From NCBI GenBank assembly GCA_949281375.1, contig CASDLT010000038.1:124001-188000 (forward strand): a stretch of 64,000 nucleotides of DNA, written 5' to 3'. The stretch comes from an uncultured Nitrosomonas sp. (GTDB taxonomy: Bacteria; Pseudomonadota; Gammaproteobacteria; Burkholderiales; Nitrosomonadaceae). Of the stretch, positions 1,368 through 8,705 are shown piece by piece. How positions within the stretch are numbered: position 1 is the first letter of the stretch; the number at the start of each line of letters is the position of its first letter. The position numbers and the translations under genes were made by a program. The notes under the pieces are model-generated. The model ran no database searches and had not been told where the DNA came from. It saw nothing but the letters and a program-made list of their open reading frames with translations.

Positions 1368-2870
1368 TTATGGGATGTTGCGGGCATCGAAGGGATAATG
1401 ACGCGGCAAATGCTGAACACTGATCCACTGATCAGTCGTGAAGGCTGCGACAGCCCAAGCGCCATTGAAACGGCCAATGCCGGAATTCTTTTCACCGCCA
1501 AAGGGACTGTAGGGCAAATCGTTGACCGGTTGATCATTGATATGCGCCATGCCCGCTTCGAGTTGTTGCGCGAAGCGCAGGCCACGCTCGATATCTTGCG
1601 TAAACACTGCCGCAGCCAGTCCAAGATCGGTGTCATTGGCGATAGCCAGCGCCTCGGCTTCATTTCGCGCACGCATGATGGGCACGATCGGCCCGAACGA
1701 TTCCGTTTGAGCCAGCGGCATCTGATTCGTCACGCGATCGAATACATGAGGCGGCAGCACCCAGCCACTCGCTTCGCCGCCAACCACCTGCTGCGCGCCG
1801 GATGAAACCGCCTGCTGAATCCGTTGCTGCAAGCCTTTCAATTGACTTTCATTGATAATCGGGCCGACTAAGGTATCGGGGGCATCGGGATCACCCGCTT
1901 TCAATTGCCGCACCCGTTCCGCAAAACGCTGCACGAAATCATCGTGGCGTTGTTCGTCGACGATGATGCGGTTGATGCTCATGCAGGTCTGGCCCTGGTG
2001 CAGAAATTTGCCAAACACCGCCGCCTCTACCGCCCGCTCCAGATCGGCATCATTCAACACCACGAACGGGCTATTGCCACCCAGCTCCAATTCCAGCCGT
2101 TTCAGCATCGGGCCTTCGGCGGCCAGCTTGGCAATATTGCGGCCCACCGGCGTCGAACCGGTAAATGAGATGACACGGGGAACGAGATGGGTGACAAACG
2201 CATCGCCGATCTCGCTGCCTGCCCCGACAATCACGCTGAGTACCCCTGGAGGCAGTCCCGCCTCTTCAAGGATTTTTGCAAACAGCAGCCCGCCTGTCAC
2301 GGGCGTATCACTGGCGGGTTTCACTACCACCGCGTTACCGACCGCGAGTGCGGGCGCGGCGGAACGGGCGGTGAGCTGGAATGGCCAATTCCACGGACTG
2401 ATCACGCCAACCACGCCAACAGGTTTACGATACATGCGGCTTTCCTTGCCGGGAATGTCGGCCGGCAGAATCCGGCCTTCCACCAGATAAGGCAATGTGG
2501 CTGCTTCCAAAAGCACGCCATTGACAGCGTGCCATTCCAGATTGGCTTTGATGCGCGTGCCCCCGGCTTCATGAATGATCCAGGACACGATTTCTTCACG
2601 ACGCGCTTCCATGATTTGCGCGGCTCGGCGCATGACGGCGGCACGCGCACCGGGAATCAACGCCGACCACGCCTGTTGCGCCCGGACAGCGCCGCGATAG
2701 GCTTCGTCCATGTCCTCGCGATTGGCATGAGGAATTTCGACCAGCGTACTGCCATCGTATGGATTCAGATCCCGTAAAACCTTGGCTCCCTTACCGTGCC
2801 GCCATTGACCATTGATCGGCAATCGATCGAAGTTCGAATATACGGGCGGAGCTTCTTTGTTATTTTCCAT
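1368..2870 (-). CDS. NAD(P)-dependent aldehyde dehydrogenase (benzaldehyde/vanillin dehydrogenase-like)
   Basis: A 500-residue, full-length aldehyde dehydrogenase that oxidises an aldehyde to the acid with NAD(P)+. Visible motifs are SPWNWPFQL (158-166), the nucleotide-binding FTGSTPVG (236-243), catalytic Glu262 in LELGGNSP and nucleophilic Cys296 in GQTCMS. The C-terminal [15 protein letters not shown] stretch is also typical. The overall pattern resembles bacterial benzaldehyde, vanillin and salicylaldehyde dehydrogenases, but substrate choice cannot be read from the sequence. It is the last gene of the minus-strand cluster, 69 bases after the zinc alcohol dehydrogenase. That position suggests it makes an aromatic acid from the aldehyde produced upstream. 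In Pseudomonas p-cresol operons the equivalent gene is pchA. Confidence 0.88.
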
Positions 2871-2939
2871 AATCTTTTGTTCCTATTTGGTTTCCCAGAA
2901 ATCCAGTTACCGTTGCCCGGCGCGATGTTGATGAATTTC

Positions 2940-4052
2940 TTACGTCAGCCGGATGATCGGTTTGATCGTGACGCCCTTCTCGCTGTCTTCAGCAGCTTGA
3001 TTGATCTGGTCGAGAGAATAAAATTTCACCAGCCGGTCGAAAGGAAATTTCCCTTGCTGAAAAAGTTGAACCAGCATCGGAATGAAAAGATCCGGCTTGC
3101 TATCGCCCTCGATGATGCCGATGATGCGTTTTCCTGTCGTCATCACGCCGTTCACATCGAAGCTGGCCTCGGTGCCCAACGCTGGTGCGCCGACAATGCC
3201 ACATGTTCCCCGGATCGCCAGCGCATCGATGGCTTGACGCAATACCGCCGGGCGTCCGCTCGATTCCAGCGTAAAATCCGCGCCACCGCCGGTAATTTCA
3301 CGAACCACTTCAACCGGATCGACTTCCCGGCTGTTGATGGTGTGCGTAGCACCGAGTTCCATCGCCAGCGTCAGGCGTGCAGGCACCACATCCGCCGAAA
3401 TGATGGTGGTAGCACCGGCAGCGCGCGCCGCCATCACGGCGCTGAGTCCCACTGCGCCGCCGCCGAAAGCGGCAAAACTGCTGCCAGGGGTGATTTTAAG
3501 CGCGTTCATGACCGCACCCGCGCCCGTCTGAATGCCGCAACCCAGCGGGCCAAGCAATTCCAGGGGTGCATCGTTAGGCACTTTGATGACATTACGCTCG
3601 TGCACCAGCGCAAACGTGCCAAAGGATGACTGTCCAAAAAAATGATCGTGAATCGGTTCTTGCGTACCGTTGTCAGAATGAGTCGCCATGCTGCCATCTT
3701 CACGCGCGCCGCCGAAATTCAACGGGTAAAAATGCTCGCAATAGGTGAAATTCCCCTGCAAGCACGATCTGCAATGCCCGCACCACATGAAAGTCAGCAC
3801 GACATGATCGCCCACCGCGACTTTCTTGACAGCGCTGCCGGTCTGCTCGACCACTCCGGAACCTTCATGCCCCAGCACCACTGGCAGAGGCACATCATAC
3901 AACTGATCGCGCGCCACCATATCGGTATGGCACATTCCCGCGGCGACGATGCGGACACGGACTTCATCAGGGCGGGGATCTTCCAGCAGCAGGTCTTCAA
4001 TTTGAAAAGGCCCGCCTTTTTGACGAATGACGGCTGCTTTGATTTTTACCAT
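2940..4052 (-). CDS. zinc-dependent alcohol dehydrogenase (aryl-alcohol dehydrogenase-like)
   Basis: A 370-residue medium-chain dehydrogenase/reductase that would interconvert an alcohol and an aldehyde with NAD+. Catalytic zinc ligands are Cys41 (GMCHTD), His62-Glu63 (GHEGSG) and a later Cys in GPLGCGIQTG. The structural zinc lobe has four cysteines at 91, 94, 97 and 105. The Rossmann motif FGGGAVGLSA follows. The layout is that of class III-like or aryl-alcohol (benzyl-alcohol) dehydrogenases. It lies between the flavoprotein gene (326-base gap) and the aldehyde dehydrogenase (69-base gap), which fits a 4-hydroxybenzyl-alcohol or similar substrate. A formaldehyde/glutathione-type role is an alternative, since class III enzymes share much of the fold. 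Confidence 0.85.
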   Translation of the reverse strand: MVKIKAAVIRQKGGPFQIEDLLLEDPRPDEVRVRIVAAGMCHTDMVARDQLYDVPLPVVLGHEGSGVVEQTGSAVKKVAVGDHVVLTFMWCGHCRSCLQGNFTYCEHFYPLNFGGAREDGSMATHSDNGTQEPIHDHFFGQSSFGTFALVHERNVIKVPNDAPLELLGPLGCGIQTGAGAVMNALKITPGSSFAAFGGGAVGLSAVMAARAAGATTIISADVVPARLTLAMELGATHTINSREVDPVEVVREITGGGADFTLESSGRPAVLRQAIDALAIRGTCGIVGAPALGTEASFDVNGVMTTGKRIIGIIEGDSKPDLFIPMLVQLFQQGKFPFDRLVKFYSLDQINQAAEDSEKGVTIKPIIRLT

Positions 4053-4378
4053 GTTTACGTCTCCGCATTGAGTATGGCAGTTTTCCGAAATCCAAAAGTC
4101 ACTAAAGAATCTTGAGAATACGCTGAAGAAATGAACAACGCGTCCGGAGCGAATTGAATGCAGGCCTTAAAATCCTGTCATGCCTCTCAACACAGCTTTC
4201 CCGCCTGAAGCCGCCTGCCTCGATCATCGTCAGCGCTCTTTCTCAACGTTTTGCCCAGGACGCACTGATCGATTCAATCTACGGAACGCAGCTCCGAGAC
4301 TTATCAATACGATAGTCAAGGAAGGAGTCCCCCGCAACGAAGCGATCTGCTGGTTCCAGTCGATCAGTCAGCGTTTAC
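4053..4378. other. 326-base gap inside the aromatic cluster; no intact gene
   Basis: This is the only wide gap among the otherwise tightly spaced cluster genes. No intact reading frame with a believable start is present on the minus strand. On the plus strand a stretch at about 4206-4314 translates into a protein-like segment (…SALSQRFAQDALIDS…) that stops at TAG, with no recognisable family. It may be a remnant of a lost gene. A separate promoter for the alcohol and aldehyde dehydrogenases could lie here, but I see no convincing -35/-10 pair. Confidence 0.4.
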
Positions 4379-5923
4379 CTAACGAATGCCTGATTTCCCG
4401 GGCGCGATGATGCCATTGGGATCCAGCGCTTTCTTGAGCGTACTGTGCACCTTCCGCTGCACCGGGCCATAGGTTTCGGCAACTTTGTCCATGAAGGCGG
4501 TATTGACGCGATAAGTGCCATACCCTCGCGCAGAAAATTCCGCCAACAATTCGTCAAAACACTGATAAGCCGCCTTCGTCTGTTCGGGATCGGTCTTATC
4601 GTACAACACGTCGACGATATGATGCATATCGCGCATGCCGACGATGAATTCCCCCGAATAATCCAGTCCGTATTTCGCCAGAATCTGCTTGGTCAGCGCC
4701 ATCTGTTTCAGCGTTTCACTGCCGCGAGCTTGCGAGACCGGCGCAAACCACATCGACCCGCCACCTCCGCGCCAGTTGTACAGTGAAAACTCCGTCAGCG
4801 TCATTTCTCCGCACATGAGCTTGGCGCGATACTCAAAGGCAGGATCATTCGCCGCTTCCTGTTCCGTCAGTATTTTTGCCTTGCCGGATTTGCCGAACGC
4901 CTGTGTCACGATATTCCAGTTCACATCGATCTGTTCCTGCGTGCCGTAGAGCGCCGCATACACATTCCAGATCCCCAGTTTATGGTCTTTCATGATCCGG
5001 TAGACGGCTTCATCCGGGATTGAGCCCGGCCCGGAGACATAATCGCTCCGCTTGGCTTTTACCGGTGCCTCATACAGCGCATGGGCGATGACCACGGCAT
5101 TGGGGATAACCCCGCTGATGCGTAATGGCCGGATCGTTTCAACGATCTCGACGATGTCTTCTTCGTCTTGATATTGAATGACAAACGGCTTGAATGCCGG
5201 CGGTTCGGGCATTAACCAGAACCCGAATTTAGTCACGATGCCATAATTCGATTGCGTGAAAATCCCATCGAGATAAGGGCCATATCCCCATTTGAAGACC
5301 TGCCAGGTGTTGGAATTTGGCATCGACCCCATGCCGGTGCGCAATACCTCGCCATTCGCCAGCACCACTTCCATGCCGCAGGCAAACAAAAAGTGCTCGC
5401 CATAAGGCGTGTAACCCACGCCCCGATCCAGCGTATTGCCCACCGGCCCGGCGATGGCGGATGGCGCGGGCATCGATAACCACAGGCCCAACTTGTGCTC
5501 TTTGATGTAATCGTAGAGTTGCTGATAGGTCACGCCCGGTTCAACCAAAGCAAAGGCCAGATCCTTATCCACTTCCAGGATACGGTTCATGCGCTTGAGA
5601 TCAAGCACCACCTGGCCCCGTTCTGCGGGTGCAGCCGAACCATAGCCCAAATTCTTGCCAGTGGAAATCATCCAGATCGGTACTTTGTACTGATTGCAAA
5701 TCGCCACGATTTTCTGGATTTGCTCGACGGTGGTGGCCAGTAATGCCGCGGATGGCGTATGGTCGCCATCAGGAACCGGCATCATGGTCTTGATGTAAGG
5801 CGCAAGCTGTTCCGCGCTGGTGAGTACGGAAGCATCGCCCAGAACCGTGCGAAAATCACGGATGGCGGTATCGAAATCTTTTTCCAAAACCCCTTTGGGT
5901 AAGGCAATATATTGACTGGTCAT
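4379..5923 (-). CDS. pchF: 4-cresol dehydrogenase / vanillyl-alcohol oxidase-type FAD flavoprotein
   Basis: A 514-residue flavoprotein of the VAO/PCMH family, which oxidises para-substituted phenols (4-cresol, 4-alkylphenols, vanillyl alcohol, eugenol) through a quinone methide. The FAD domain is at about 55-240 with the P-loop-like segment STGKNLGYGSAAP. The substrate-cap domain follows. Tyr471-Arg472 in GTYRVNTAFMD align by eye with the phenolate-binding Tyr-Arg pair of vanillyl-alcohol oxidase and 4-cresol dehydrogenase. The C-terminal LDPNGIIAPGKSGI is typical of the family. The gene for a small cytochrome c is two genes upstream, which argues for a dehydrogenase passing electrons to cytochrome rather than an oxidase. 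The start ATG is 12 bases after the upstream stop. The exact substrate and the FAD-linking residue cannot be fixed by reading. Confidence 0.85.
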   Translation of the reverse strand: MTSQYIALPKGVLEKDFDTAIRDFRTVLGDASVLTSAEQLAPYIKTMMPVPDGDHTPSAALLATTVEQIQKIVAICNQYKVPIWMISTGKNLGYGSAAPAERGQVVLDLKRMNRILEVDKDLAFALVEPGVTYQQLYDYIKEHKLGLWLSMPAPSAIAGPVGNTLDRGVGYTPYGEHFLFACGMEVVLANGEVLRTGMGSMPNSNTWQVFKWGYGPYLDGIFTQSNYGIVTKFGFWLMPEPPAFKPFVIQYQDEEDIVEIVETIRPLRISGVIPNAVVIAHALYEAPVKAKRSDYVSGPGSIPDEAVYRIMKDHKLGIWNVYAALYGTQEQIDVNWNIVTQAFGKSGKAKILTEQEAANDPAFEYRAKLMCGEMTLTEFSLYNWRGGGGSMWFAPVSQARGSETLKQMALTKQILAKYGLDYSGEFIVGMRDMHHIVDVLYDKTDPEQTKAAYQCFDELLAEFSARGYGTYRVNTAFMDKVAETYGPVQRKVHSTLKKALDPNGIIAPGKSGIR

Positions 5924-5935
5924 GCTGTGTTCTCC

Positions 5936-6850
5936 CTACACGTCGATGACAAATGAAACAAATTGTTTTCCCGCCAACCCATCATGATCCCGATTGCGGT
6001 TATCCGGCCGGTGCACAAAAGCGCGCTGCGCACAGGATTCCTGGTGCATTCTCATCCCTAGCGCAGCGGCCACCACCGCGTAACCCGTGGCTTCGATCCA
6101 GTTTCCAAGGGGTGGGGGTTCAGCAAAAGCGGCAACCGATGAAGCAACTAACAAATCCCAGTTTGCTGATGTTTCCCAGCCCGCTAATTGGCTGGCTTCT
6201 GCCGCAGGCATACGAGCGCAATGTAAATGCAAGGTAGGCTGATCAGCCAGCCCGTAGGCAGAAAATTGTGGTAACGCTGCCGCGGTCACGCCCGTGTCAG
6301 GCAGTACCGCCTTCAGAAAATTTTCCACGATCGAGAAGCTGCGGCCAGTCTGAGCCAGCGTGGATGCCAGCAAGCCACCCGCGCCGTATACCGGCGAAGC
6401 GGTCGTCCATCGGTGCCGAAGCGAGAGCACCGCATCCGCATTGGATGCCGACGCATGCGAACCCAAAGCCAGCAAACGTCCATCGGCATCGCGCACCAGT
6501 TCGGTAAAAATTGCGGCATGGGCGTAATCCATGACGGCAACCCAACGCATGTTGTGAGATCGCATCAAAAGATCGGCAATGGATTGAGGACTGATCAGCA
6601 ACTCATTTCCAAGTTTAAATGTGGCCAGCTCGCCTTGACCGGCATAGCCAAAGTGAGCACACGCGGCTCGTGCCCCGGTTGCGAAGGCTTCGTCGATGAC
6701 GGTGCTGCCCAGCAGCAACTGGCAATCGCGCGTATGGCCTGACAGGGCCGAGGCGGTTGAAGCTGCCTGGGTTATGCCCGGAATACCCAGCGCCAGCAAC
6801 GTTCCGCCGGTGAGCATGCCCTTGATGAGGTTACGCCGTGTTTCATCCAT
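5936..6850 (-). CDS. Tat-exported protein of unknown function, positional equivalent of PchX
   Basis: A 304-residue protein with an N-terminal twin-arginine signal (TRRNLIKG, residues 4-11), a hydrophobic stretch and a cleavage-like TQAAS near residue 30. The mature part contains no domain I can name. It is rich in Ala, with segments such as HASASNADAV and YGAGGLLAS. The frame is open upstream to 7087, but ATG 6850 has a strong AAGGAGGA ribosome site and starts 13 bases after the cytochrome stop, so I chose it. It sits exactly between the cytochrome and flavoprotein genes, as the uncharacterised pchX does in Pseudomonas p-cresol operons. Tat export suggests a folded or cofactor-dependent periplasmic partner, perhaps helping assembly of the flavocytochrome. 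That role is inference. Confidence 0.75.
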   Translation of the reverse strand: MDETRRNLIKGMLTGGTLLALGIPGITQAASTASALSGHTRDCQLLLGSTVIDEAFATGARAACAHFGYAGQGELATFKLGNELLISPQSIADLLMRSHNMRWVAVMDYAHAAIFTELVRDADGRLLALGSHASASNADAVLSLRHRWTTASPVYGAGGLLASTLAQTGRSFSIVENFLKAVLPDTGVTAAALPQFSAYGLADQPTLHLHCARMPAAEASQLAGWETSANWDLLVASSVAAFAEPPPLGNWIEATGYAVVAAALGMRMHQESCAQRAFVHRPDNRNRDHDGLAGKQFVSFVIDV

Positions 6851-6863
6851 GACGGGGTCCTCC

Positions 6864-7199
6864 TTAGGGTTGTGTTGAGCGGTGGGAAATGAACTCCGCC
6901 AATTTTGCCAGCGATTCATCATCGATTTCCGAAGGACGGAAGGCCGGCATCGCCCGGTTGCCGTTGCGCACCATGTGCCGGATGTAATCTGGTGACAATT
7001 CCCGATTGCGAATCGGCGGCCCGACTTGGACATCATGGCAATAGGCGCAGATTTTGGCATAGATTTCCGCCCCATCTTTCCACGCATGATTAGGAGATGG
7101 TTTGCCGTCCTGCGCCGCCGATACCCAGCCTGATACGAGGAAAAAAACCATCGACATGACGCCGAATGTGATTAAGGGGGTTATTTTTCTTGCTTTCAT
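6864..7199 (-). CDS. pchC: small periplasmic cytochrome c (4-cresol dehydrogenase cytochrome subunit-like)
   Basis: A 111-residue class I cytochrome c. A Sec signal peptide (about 1-29, ending VSAAQ) is followed by the haem motif CAYCH at 51-55 and a probable distal ligand Met84 in AMPAF. Mature size is about 80 residues, matching the short cytochrome subunit of flavocytochrome 4-cresol dehydrogenase. It would accept electrons from the flavoprotein and pass them to the respiratory chain. It precedes the Tat protein and flavoprotein genes by short gaps, in the order cytochrome, unknown, flavoprotein. A generic electron-carrier cytochrome is possible, but the context makes the subunit role likely. 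Confidence 0.82.
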   Translation of the reverse strand: MKARKITPLITFGVMSMVFFLVSGWVSAAQDGKPSPNHAWKDGAEIYAKICAYCHDVQVGPPIRNRELSPDYIRHMVRNGNRAMPAFRPSEIDDESLAKLAEFISHRSTQP

Positions 7200-7257
7200 A
7201 TTGATCCTCCGAAGAATTTCAGTGATTAATATAGAGGCTGGCTATTCTTTCAAAAAA

Positions 7258-8103
7258 TTACTGCCACAGAAAACTCGTCACTTTTTTTCCCATGATTTCC
7301 GCATTGAACGCGACCTTGGCTTGCGGCGTGTCAGCACAAGCGATGCCGTAGCAGACGAGCAAAGGCATTAAATGTTCTTCTCTGGGATGGCAATAACGCG
7401 CTGCCGGCGCTTGTTGCCATTCGATCAGCCGCTGTTCACGTTCCGTTGCCGATATCTCGTCGCCGGCACAGGTTTCCAGCAACCAGTGATCAAATGCGTC
7501 GTTCTCGGCATCACCATCATTGCCTTGGGTAAAGAATCGTTTCAAATTATGAAAGGACATTCCAGAGCCAATGACGAGAATGTTTTCCTTTCGTAGAGAC
7601 TGCAAGGCTTTCCCGATATCAATATGCTGCTGCGGATTTAAATTCTTCAGCAGGGATAGCTGAACACATGGGATATTCGCCAATGGATACATCAGCATCA
7701 GCGGAATAAACATGCCGTGATCGAACCCACGCTGTCCGTTTTGCTGGGCGGCGATGCCTTGAGAAATGAGCAGTTCGGCGATTTTCTTAGCAAGCTGGGG
7801 CTGGCCGGACGCAGGATATTGAAGATGATACGCCTCAACCGGAAAACCATAGTAATCATAAATCAATTCAGGATGACTGCCGCTCGTGACCATCGCATGA
7901 TCTTCTTCCCAGTGCGCGCTGATGATAAGTATCGCTGCAGGTTGATGCCAATCTTGGACGATCGCTTTTAGGAAAGTGATCATGTTTTCATGAGCTTTAT
8001 CGCCTAGAATGGGCAAAGGACCTCCACCATGCGGTATATATATGACCGGCGCCAATTTATCTGATGATTGATTATCCATGTGCTCATGCTTCTCCGGAAT
8101 CAT
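7258..8103 (-). CDS. ygiD: class III extradiol ring-cleavage dioxygenase (4,5-DOPA dioxygenase/YgiD family)
   Basis: A 281-residue LigB-superfamily protein. Members use a mononuclear metal (Fe2+, or Zn2+ in some YgiD structures) to cleave catechol rings, and plant homologues act on L-DOPA. Metal-ligand candidates are the His in [14 protein letters not shown] and RGFDHGMF, and a late His in [12 protein letters not shown]. The first ATG (8103) overlaps the wrbA stop as ATGA, and a second in-frame ATG lies at 8079. It sits directly ahead of the cytochrome gene (58-base gap). A role in opening catecholic products of the phenol-oxidising enzymes is attractive but not shown, because YgiD proteins often occur alone. 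Confidence 0.8.
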
Positions 8104-8705
8104 TGCTCAGTTAATTTCCTGGCTATGTGGGCAACATGATTGCCCTGAAAGCGAGCGACCTTCAATTCATTTTCTGACGGTTTCCGGCTACCGTCGCCAC
8201 CAGCGAGGGTACTGGCCCCATAGGGAGAACCACCCGTGATTTCGCTCATGTTCATGATTTCCTGGCAAGAATAGGGAACGCCTACGATGATCATGCCGTG
8301 ATGAAGCAAGGTAGTATGAAATGAAGTGATCGTGGTTTCCTGGCCGCCATGTTGAGTGCCGGTCGAAGTAAATACGCTGCCTACCTTGCCGATCAGTCCG
8401 CCGTTCAACCATAACTTTCCGGTCTGATCCAGAAAATTCCGCATTTGCGCGCACATGTTGCCAAAACGGGTTGGTGTTCCGAAAATGATGGCATCGTAAT
8501 TTACCAGTTCATCGATTGACGCAATGGGCGCTGGCTGATCGAGTTTGGCCCCAACTCTCTGCGCCACTTCGTCGGACATGAGCTCGGGAACGCGTTTAAC
8601 GGCAACCTCGGTATTCTCGACGCTCTTGACGCCTTCGGCTACAGCATGGGCCATGATTTCGACATGGCCATACATGCTGTAGTAAAGAACAAGAATTCTG
8701 GTCAT
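8100..8705 (-). CDS. wrbA: NAD(P)H:quinone oxidoreductase, WrbA type
   Basis: A 201-residue flavodoxin-like protein that binds FMN and reduces quinones by two electrons, avoiding semiquinone radicals. The phosphate loop is YYSMYGHVE near residue 9. The isoalloxazine-contacting loops PTRFGNM and [10 protein letters not shown] and the C-terminal [18 protein letters not shown] segment are WrbA hallmarks. The frame is open to an upstream ATG at 8720. I use ATG 8705 because GAGGAGG lies 6 bases before it. It is the first gene of the aromatic cluster, overlaps the dioxygenase start by 4 bases, and has a candidate promoter just upstream. Quinone detoxification fits the neighbours. Confidence 0.9.

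Follow-up and report, generated by a model that had tools for sequence, protein, structure and literature searches.

The window analysed here, a 64,000-nucleotide stretch of an uncultured Nitrosomonas sp. (GCA_949281375.1, contig CASDLT010000038.1, positions 124,001 to 188,000 of the forward strand), carries on its minus strand a seven-gene cluster (1368..8705) that we read, with a probability of about 0.72, as a p-cresol methylhydroxylase (PCMH) operon of ammonia-oxidising Nitrosomonas. The operon would belong to a clade shared among nitrifiers and would oxidise phenols in the periplasm to 4-hydroxybenzoate for detoxification, with the PchX protein serving as a carrier, a reading that is drawn from sequence comparison. 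A previous sequence-only reading had proposed that seven co-directional genes oxidise a para-substituted phenol to the acid and deliver electrons to a c-type cytochrome in a chemolithotrophic host. All seven frames are indeed present, the family matches of the flavoprotein, the cytochrome and the alcohol and aldehyde dehydrogenases (ADH and ALDH) support the proposed oxidation, and the genus possesses ammonia monooxygenase (AmoA in 34 of 61 genomes, with no hit in the draft assembly that holds the window). The operon belongs to a known kind, and since the identical seven-gene order is found again in other Nitrosomonas, the gene order is not due to chance.

The flavoprotein and its catalytic residues

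The flavoprotein is assigned to the p-cresol methylhydroxylase type (PchF) by its closest relatives and its active-site signature. Its best solved relative is the PCMH of Pseudomonas putida (1dii/1wve), which aligns over residues 6-513, while the next distinct enzyme scores 574 bits, eugenol oxidase about 456 bits and vanillyl-alcohol oxidase (VAO) about 390 bits. Together with its grouping with PCMH-type loci in trees, this match bears out the earlier placement of the protein in the VAO/PCMH family. The residues expected of a PCMH are found, namely the tyrosine that links the flavin adenine dinucleotide (FAD; Tyr382), the phenolate-binding Tyr/Tyr/Arg set (Tyr94, Tyr471, Arg472) and the Ala-Pro pair at the flavin N5 (Ala153-Pro154), and Glu378, Glu425, His434 and Asp438 are also kept. 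When 42 nitrifier PchF rows are aligned with 39 others, eleven such positions prove identical in 40-42 of the nitrifier rows and in all 39 others, except for Ala153 and Pro154 (38 of 39). The nitrifier exceptions are a gap in one partial row and a row that deviates at Y471 and R472, the latter likely being a frameshifted copy.

For the checked residues other than Y384, A154 and P155, the P. putida equivalents are those that we take to correspond. In Table 1 of PMC7617285, Ala-Pro is given as the PCMH pair (with Y384, A154 and P155 in P. putida), whereas the oxidases are listed with an Asp/Glu-Leu pair and a His-linked FAD, and eugenol hydroxylase with Thr-Ile and a Tyr-linked FAD. Accordingly, a eugenol hydroxylase identity was rejected because Ala153-Pro154 replaces Thr-Ile at the N5 site, and a VAO-type oxidase identity was rejected because Tyr382 and Ala-Pro stand in place of the His-linked FAD and the Asp/Glu-Leu pair.

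The cytochrome, the dehydrogenases and the upstream enzymes

The cytochrome gene is recognised as pchC, as its sole strong solved relative is the cytochrome subunit of PCMH; the protein displays a single CXXCH motif (CAYCH, from residue 51) and, by eye, a Sec-type leader. The previously noted cytochrome-X-flavoprotein order thus corresponds to pchC-pchX-pchF, with a gene for a twin-arginine translocation (Tat) leader protein between pchC and pchF, an arrangement that recurs at other loci.

The best six solved matches of the ALDH include five with the name 4-hydroxybenzaldehyde dehydrogenase (660-673 bits); the sixth, 8zcx, bears a generic name (659 bits), and the benzaldehyde dehydrogenase 3r64 comes next (575 bits). 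The proposed step to the acid agrees with these nearest relatives by sequence. The zinc-dependent ADH reached no NCBIfam model at its cut-off. Its best match, 5tnx, has a generic name, and among the solved relatives with specific names the benzyl alcohol dehydrogenase 1f8f is nearest, other ADHs scoring at most 226 bits. The assignment of WrbA was confirmed well above the cut-off of its model (Table 1).

As to the ring-cleaving dioxygenase, membership in the LigB superfamily stands, with a DODA/YgiD type and 4,5-DOPA dioxygenases as the nearest group (best solved relative 8in2). The protein falls under the cut-off of the 4,5-DOPA extradiol dioxygenase (DODA) equivalog NF007914 (146.8 against 233 bits), hence the wider superfamily (PF02900) is all that is claimed, and cleavage of the pathway's own product cannot be claimed.

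A PCMH clade shared by nitrifiers

A scan of GTDB r220 species with two peptide patterns yielded 351 relatives. Among the best 80, which were used, 41 loci with 83-97% PchF identity derive from named Nitrosomonas, Nitrosospira, Nitrosovibrio, Candidatus Nitrotoga and Nitrospira, or from metagenome-assembled genomes (MAGs) grouping with them; the best locus outside the 41, from a groundwater betaproteobacterium, has 75% identity. These MAGs are loosely named (L072, L088, L091, L100), and L072, L088 and L091 are counted as nitrifiers by their position in the tree. The scan listed none of the Nitrospira copies with 78-81% identity, which were either missed or not in the collection, therefore non-nitrifier members of the clade may also have been missed; Nitrobacter, Nitrosococcus and comammox bacteria were not searched by name.

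In a careful tree of 86 rows, 44 nitrifier rows are split from 42 others with a branch support of 100/100. The clade unites ammonia oxidisers (Nitrosomonas, Nitrosospira, Nitrosovibrio) with nitrite oxidisers (Nitrotoga and Nitrospira), the last belonging to another phylum. The other rows include two Nitrosomonas (L129, L140) with a 66% identical version that groups with Polaromonas and Azohydromonas, so the clade is named after its members and not every nitrifier PCMH lies inside it. Judging by this grouping in the tree, the 65-66% PCMH of some Nitrosomonas (L129 and L140, and further G001, G012, G080 and G087) represents a second, separate acquisition by ammonia oxidisers.

Comparison with the housekeeping protein UvrB suggests that nitrifiers passed the phenol-handling system to one another. 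N. defluvii shares 58% identity with the window in UvrB and 87% in PchF, which argues for transfer of PchF between nitrifiers, and the corresponding values are 77-78 and 90-92% for Nitrotoga, and 82-83 and 87-89% for Nitrosospira. Slow evolution combined with vertical descent would be the other way to explain the similarity between the Nitrospira and Nitrosomonas proteins: PchF evolves slowly in any case (see below), the Nitrospira copies form a sister group to the betaproteobacterial rows instead of falling within Nitrosomonas (supports of 98 and 97 in a quick tree of 81 rows), and some of them are merely 78-81% identical. We regard this explanation as very unlikely in view of the N. defluvii values, which contrast with those of the non-nitrifiers G116 (80% UvrB, 75% PchF) and G117 (60 and 69%), of the full support for a clade that leaves non-nitrifying Pseudomonadota outside, and of the placement of Nitrotoga inside Nitrosomonas, although the support for the latter in the quick tree is modest (82-89). 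Contamination of MAGs as the cause of the sharing was ruled out, because some carriers are named strains and the N. defluvii chromosome, also a carrier, is complete.

The ADH appears, from its sequence, to travel with pchF. Among the 39 ADHs adjoining a nitrifier pchF (that of the window being one), 38 share 86% identity or more with another nitrifier ADH, the exception being that of Nitrotoga fabula (L092), and none exceeds 67.4% identity to 15 ADHs near other pchF genes. Furthermore, a core module is evident in 41 other nitrifier loci, with PchC in 39, X in 40 and the same ADH (about 79% identity or more) in 39. LigB adjoins pchC in 16 of these loci and WrbA lies upstream in 11, all of them from Nitrosomonas or MAGs placed with Nitrosomonas.

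Carriage was also counted by genus. A PchF with at least 90% identity is present in 27 of 85 Nitrosomonas genomes, the 65-66% version in four, and, at the threshold applied, only a distant homologue in two. A Nitrosospira genus carries PchF in 17 of 23 genomes, the N. defluvii genus in 9 of 29 (one with two internal stops) plus one remnant, and Nitrospiraceae in 14 of 175 (one in two pieces). The remnant in Nitrospira is C-terminal, and the internal stops are found in another genome of that group (L165 (G137), G139:C29), while a Nitrosomonas MAG (L041, G016) has several pchF frameshifts that may be sequencing errors. The record of L103 is titled uncultured Nitrosospira, and both its genome and its PchF group with the N. 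defluvii genus. Distant VAO/PCMH homologues (about 27-35% identity) occur in several Nitrosomonas (L044 (G020:C1), L045, L046, L047), of which one has an in-frame TAG and is immediately followed by a PchC-like gene, and one lies beside a methyltransferase.

Within Nitrosomonas, the operon genes differ widely in their constraint. Across the window and five further Nitrosomonas, out of the ten that were compared with it (WrbA and ALDH on five genomes), we obtained a median nonsynonymous divergence (dN) of 0.0205 for PchF, 0.05 for WrbA, 0.07-0.08 for ADH and ALDH, 0.15 for LigB, 0.23 for PchC and 0.31 for PchX, with 0.53-0.72 synonymous differences per site (pS) across the operon genes. A dN of 0.02 at a pS of 0.53 denotes strong purifying selection on PchF, and the overall pattern implies that the operon is old in these Nitrosomonas, PchF being tightly held while PchC and PchX drift. 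In line with this, UvrB is less conserved than PchF in four Nitrosomonas of the same clade (UvrB/PchF identities of 91/97% in G033, 90/95% in G007, 81/93% in G035 and 82/92% in G020).

PchX as a probable export partner of PchF

No leader could be seen by eye on PchF in the window protein or in 13 aligned rows, and the PCMH of P. putida is periplasmic, its FAD becoming covalently bound only once the cytochrome joins. The sequence-only reading had pointed to a Tat protein in the cluster, which is identified as PchX, a homologue of the X proteins of other PCMH loci. The PchX of the window matches no Pfam, NCBIfam or PDB family, and the PF10518 TAT_signal model is found in 10 of the 37 members that were aligned, with E 0.00031 at best. 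Of 80 loci surveyed, three (L108, L110, L134) have too little upstream DNA, which leaves 77 assessable. A script proposed a Tat-leader candidate in 76 of them, and since those of L081, L137 and L139 are false as called, 73 of 77 are clear. By eye, L137 (frameshifted) and L139 also possess a twin-arginine leader protein, which brings the total to 75 of 77 loci with one beside pchF, and L081 retains the mature part of PchX, the leader being absent in its assembly. The gap between pchX and pchF is 11-35 bases in nitrifiers. On plasmid loci, the annotation of Sulfuricurvum places a twin-arginine protein between cytochrome and flavoprotein, a Tat-leader protein in Massilia is labelled hypothetical, and in Novosphingobium one precedes the cytochrome. 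The mature X domains of nitrifiers and of a mixture of other loci belong to one fast-evolving family (99.5% probability), with a weaker relation to the Halomonas type (31% probability), and the predicted fold has a mean confidence (pLDDT) of 81.

Because a leaderless folded flavoprotein must be outside and is nearly always found beside a leader protein, a Tat hitchhiker mechanism fits these data, and PchX is probably the Tat carrier or export partner of PchF, as indicated by the co-occurrence and the leader. There is precedent in an excerpt of PMC10924467, where some Tat substrates are described as exported in the form of heterodimers with the signal on one partner. A separate periplasmic role for PchX, as an assembly factor for the covalent FAD or as a phenol-binding protein, appears doubtful, as its total length varies between 126 and 346 residues whereas nearly all copies have the leader, it is the fastest-evolving of the seven genes in Nitrosomonas, and PchF has no leader of its own by eye.

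Proposed function and its alternatives

Following this scheme, PchF would fold with FAD in the cytoplasm, and PchX, bearing the twin-arginine leader that PchF lacks, would carry the folded protein over the membrane, whereas PchC would be exported by Sec, loaded with haem and meet PchF in the periplasm. There, p-cresol or a comparable 4-alkylphenol would lose a hydride from its benzylic carbon to PchF, and water would add to the resulting quinone methide. A second round would yield 4-hydroxybenzaldehyde, with the electrons passing via PchC to the soluble cytochrome c pool. This chemistry is known for the PCMH family, and the conserved residues point to it here. The benzyl-alcohol-type ADH and the 4-hydroxybenzaldehyde dehydrogenase would, by their families, complete the oxidation to 4-hydroxybenzoate. 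WrbA and the DODA-type dioxygenase, which occur in some Nitrosomonas copies only, may remove quinones or catechols formed on the side. Overall, the operon would render toxic phenols harmless with a small gain of electrons, and would not feed growth. Both 4-hydroxybenzaldehyde and 4-hydroxybenzoate have reportedly been observed as intermediates in sludge.

Several findings favour the detoxification of external phenols. No 4-hydroxybenzoate 3-hydroxylase (pobA) over cut-off was found in 61 Nitrosomonas genomes, which makes the usual route to protocatechuate unlikely and argues for detoxification rather than growth. ThiH, which could supply p-cresol from within the cell, gave no match in 85 Nitrosomonas genomes. 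UbiC is present in 55 of the 61 genomes of the genus, thus the operon would not be required for supplying ubiquinone. AmoA was detected in none of the 29 genomes of the N. defluvii genus with the same model that matched in Nitrosomonas, so the substrate is not an ammonia monooxygenase by-product in all hosts. Quinone-handling neighbours (described below) add to this picture. As a side observation, the near-complete draft genome of the window lacks an AmoA match, as do 26 others of the 61; among eight one-contig genomes of the genus, six have three AmoA copies, one a single copy and one none at all, and the missing AmoA is probably explained by collapsed repeat copies.

Other findings weigh against the proposed function. 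The pobA model gave weak matches under its cut-off in 37 of the 61 genomes, which may therefore contain an unusual hydroxylase, and the product could enter the ubiquinone route for which UbiC is present. The distribution is patchy (27/85, 17/23 and 14/175 genomes), thus the operon is not essential, some copies are broken, and the quinone-type neighbours vary from lineage to lineage. With regard to PchX, the first of two pchF copies in L125 lacks an accompanying X (the second copy has one), and the fold search returned no confident solved structural match and hence no functional hint. Finally, nine positions, including Y284, S380 and M430, separate the nitrifier clade from other PCMHs, so the substrate may not be p-cresol. 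None of the nine residues occurs in more than 10% of the 39 rows outside the clade, and first-shell residues are held responsible for substrate differences in the VAO/PCMH family in a part of PMC11148156, which raises the possibility, although an unlikely one in our estimate, that the clade acts on another para-substituted phenol, such as 4-ethylphenol, a lignin monomer or a plant nitrification inhibitor, with p-cresol as a side substrate at best. It is also a Nitrosospira genus that carries pchF most often. These are soil bacteria, and methyl 3-(4-hydroxyphenyl)propionate is an example of a plant nitrification inhibitor. This alternative is opposed by the phenolate-binding and catalytic positions of PchF, which are those of PCMH, and by the ALDH, which is of the 4-hydroxybenzaldehyde type. 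An operon serving mainly as an energy route, in which phenols serve cytochrome c as an auxiliary source of electrons under ammonia or nitrite starvation, would be consistent with the cytochrome subunit and with a PchF signature of a dehydrogenase rather than an oxidase, but we deem it improbable, given that each phenol delivers few electrons, that the resulting acid has no known route in view of the pobA result, and that the quinone-handling neighbours indicate toxicity.

Relation to known systems

The closest known system is PchCF of P. putida, encoded in an operon whose layout we take to be pchACXF, with which the Nitrosomonas operon shares the C-X-F order, the 4-hydroxybenzaldehyde dehydrogenase, the FAD-linking tyrosine and the dehydrogenase pair. 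Unlike in P. putida, pchF is followed by a benzyl-alcohol-type ADH, the upstream part holds wrbA and a DODA-type dioxygenase gene, and no 4-hydroxybenzoate hydroxylase over cut-off is found in the genus sample. Eugenol hydroxylase has the same VAO/PCMH dehydrogenase type and Tyr-linked FAD and differs in its Thr-Ile pair, while vanillyl-alcohol oxidase and eugenol oxidase share the family and the first reaction step and differ in their His-linked FAD and Asp/Glu-Leu pair. The ADH belongs to the same family as benzyl alcohol dehydrogenase (1f8f), which follows a monooxygenase in toluene-type pathways, whereas here it follows a PCMH.

Among the matches listed in the open-access literature, the nitrifier-shared clade with its transfer across phyla and the case for PchX as a Tat carrier are new. 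Tentatively, PchC-PchX-PchF and the ADH might represent a module of the nitrifier guild, exchanged across two phyla, that shields nitrification from para-alkylphenols with PchX as a dedicated Tat carrier; if so, the phenols in question would be p-cresol set free as protein decays, or nitrification inhibitors of a phenolic kind that plants release. Nitrifiers are usually seen as specialists whose contact with aromatics consists of accidental oxidation by ammonia monooxygenase. In line with this, a section of the 2022 metabolic model of N. europaea ATCC 19718 (PMC8853641) describes the aromatic products as excreted because the organism lacks enzymes for mineralising them. A dedicated, selected and horizontally shared phenol system in both halves of nitrification would alter the account of phenol inhibition in wastewater and soil, and the operon supplies a gene for testing such inhibition. 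In addition, PchX offers a testable answer to how a leaderless PCMH gets to the periplasm.

Organisation of the operon and its neighbourhood

Table 1. Genes of the PCMH operon in the window, in order of transcription.
Gene or product	Position	Strand	Remarks
wrbA, NAD(P)H:quinone oxidoreductase type IV	8100..8705	-	TIGR01755 328.7 bits, cut-off 132.5
ligB, LigB-superfamily extradiol dioxygenase, DODA/YgiD type	7258..8103	-	start 8103 or 8079; PF02900 116.2 bits
pchC, c-type cytochrome subunit	6864..7199	-	1dii_C E 4.2e-17; one CXXCH
pchX, Tat-leader protein, 304 aa	5936..6850	-	starts MDETRRNLIKG
pchF, p-cresol methylhydroxylase-type flavoprotein, 514 aa	4379..5923	-	1dii 777 bits
Benzyl-alcohol-dehydrogenase-type zinc ADH	2940..4052	-	5tnx 526 bits, 1f8f 470 bits
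4-Hydroxybenzaldehyde dehydrogenase-type ALDH (PchA-like)	1368..2870	-	9jw2 672.7 bits

We infer that the genes form a single transcript. The wrbA and ligB frames overlap by 4 bases if ligB starts at 8103, and the later gaps, from ligB through the ALDH, are 58, 13, 12, 326 and 69 bases. The earlier description of mostly short gaps therefore holds for most junctions and fails for that between pchF and the ADH (4053-4378), where 326 bases contrast with 24-104 bases at the 24 other loci from Nitrosomonas or Nitrotoga in which this ADH adjoins pchF; the distance is 82-220 bases in Nitrospira and Nitrosospira/Nitrosovibrio loci, and 905 and 959 bases in two Nitrosospira. A blastn comparison of the 326-base gap with 110 loci of PchF and related regions found a match in the window's own genome only, and promoter-like or terminator-like sites in the operon are not commoner than in shuffled sequences.

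Clustering of the genes within 8 kb at 41 loci, with Pfam names checked on one or two examples, revealed two kinds of FMN reductase (8 and 4 loci), pirin (6) and LysR regulators (6) as recurring neighbours. In Nitrosospira sp. Nsp2, an intradiol dioxygenase (PF00775; L096:10743-11486) with a Tat leader by eye directly follows the ADH. These neighbours share a theme of quinone and catechol handling, each occurring in a minority of loci and some lying several kb off. A lone intradiol dioxygenase is also found elsewhere in the window's genome (L177:6401-7060). Next to the operon, and facing it, the plus strand of the window encodes an O-methyltransferase of the Methyltransf_2 family (232-1320). 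A gene of this family is near the pch genes in 4 of the 41 clustered loci (L072, L079, L101 and the window), and in the first three a second conserved small protein, SRPBCC-like by eye, stands beside it.

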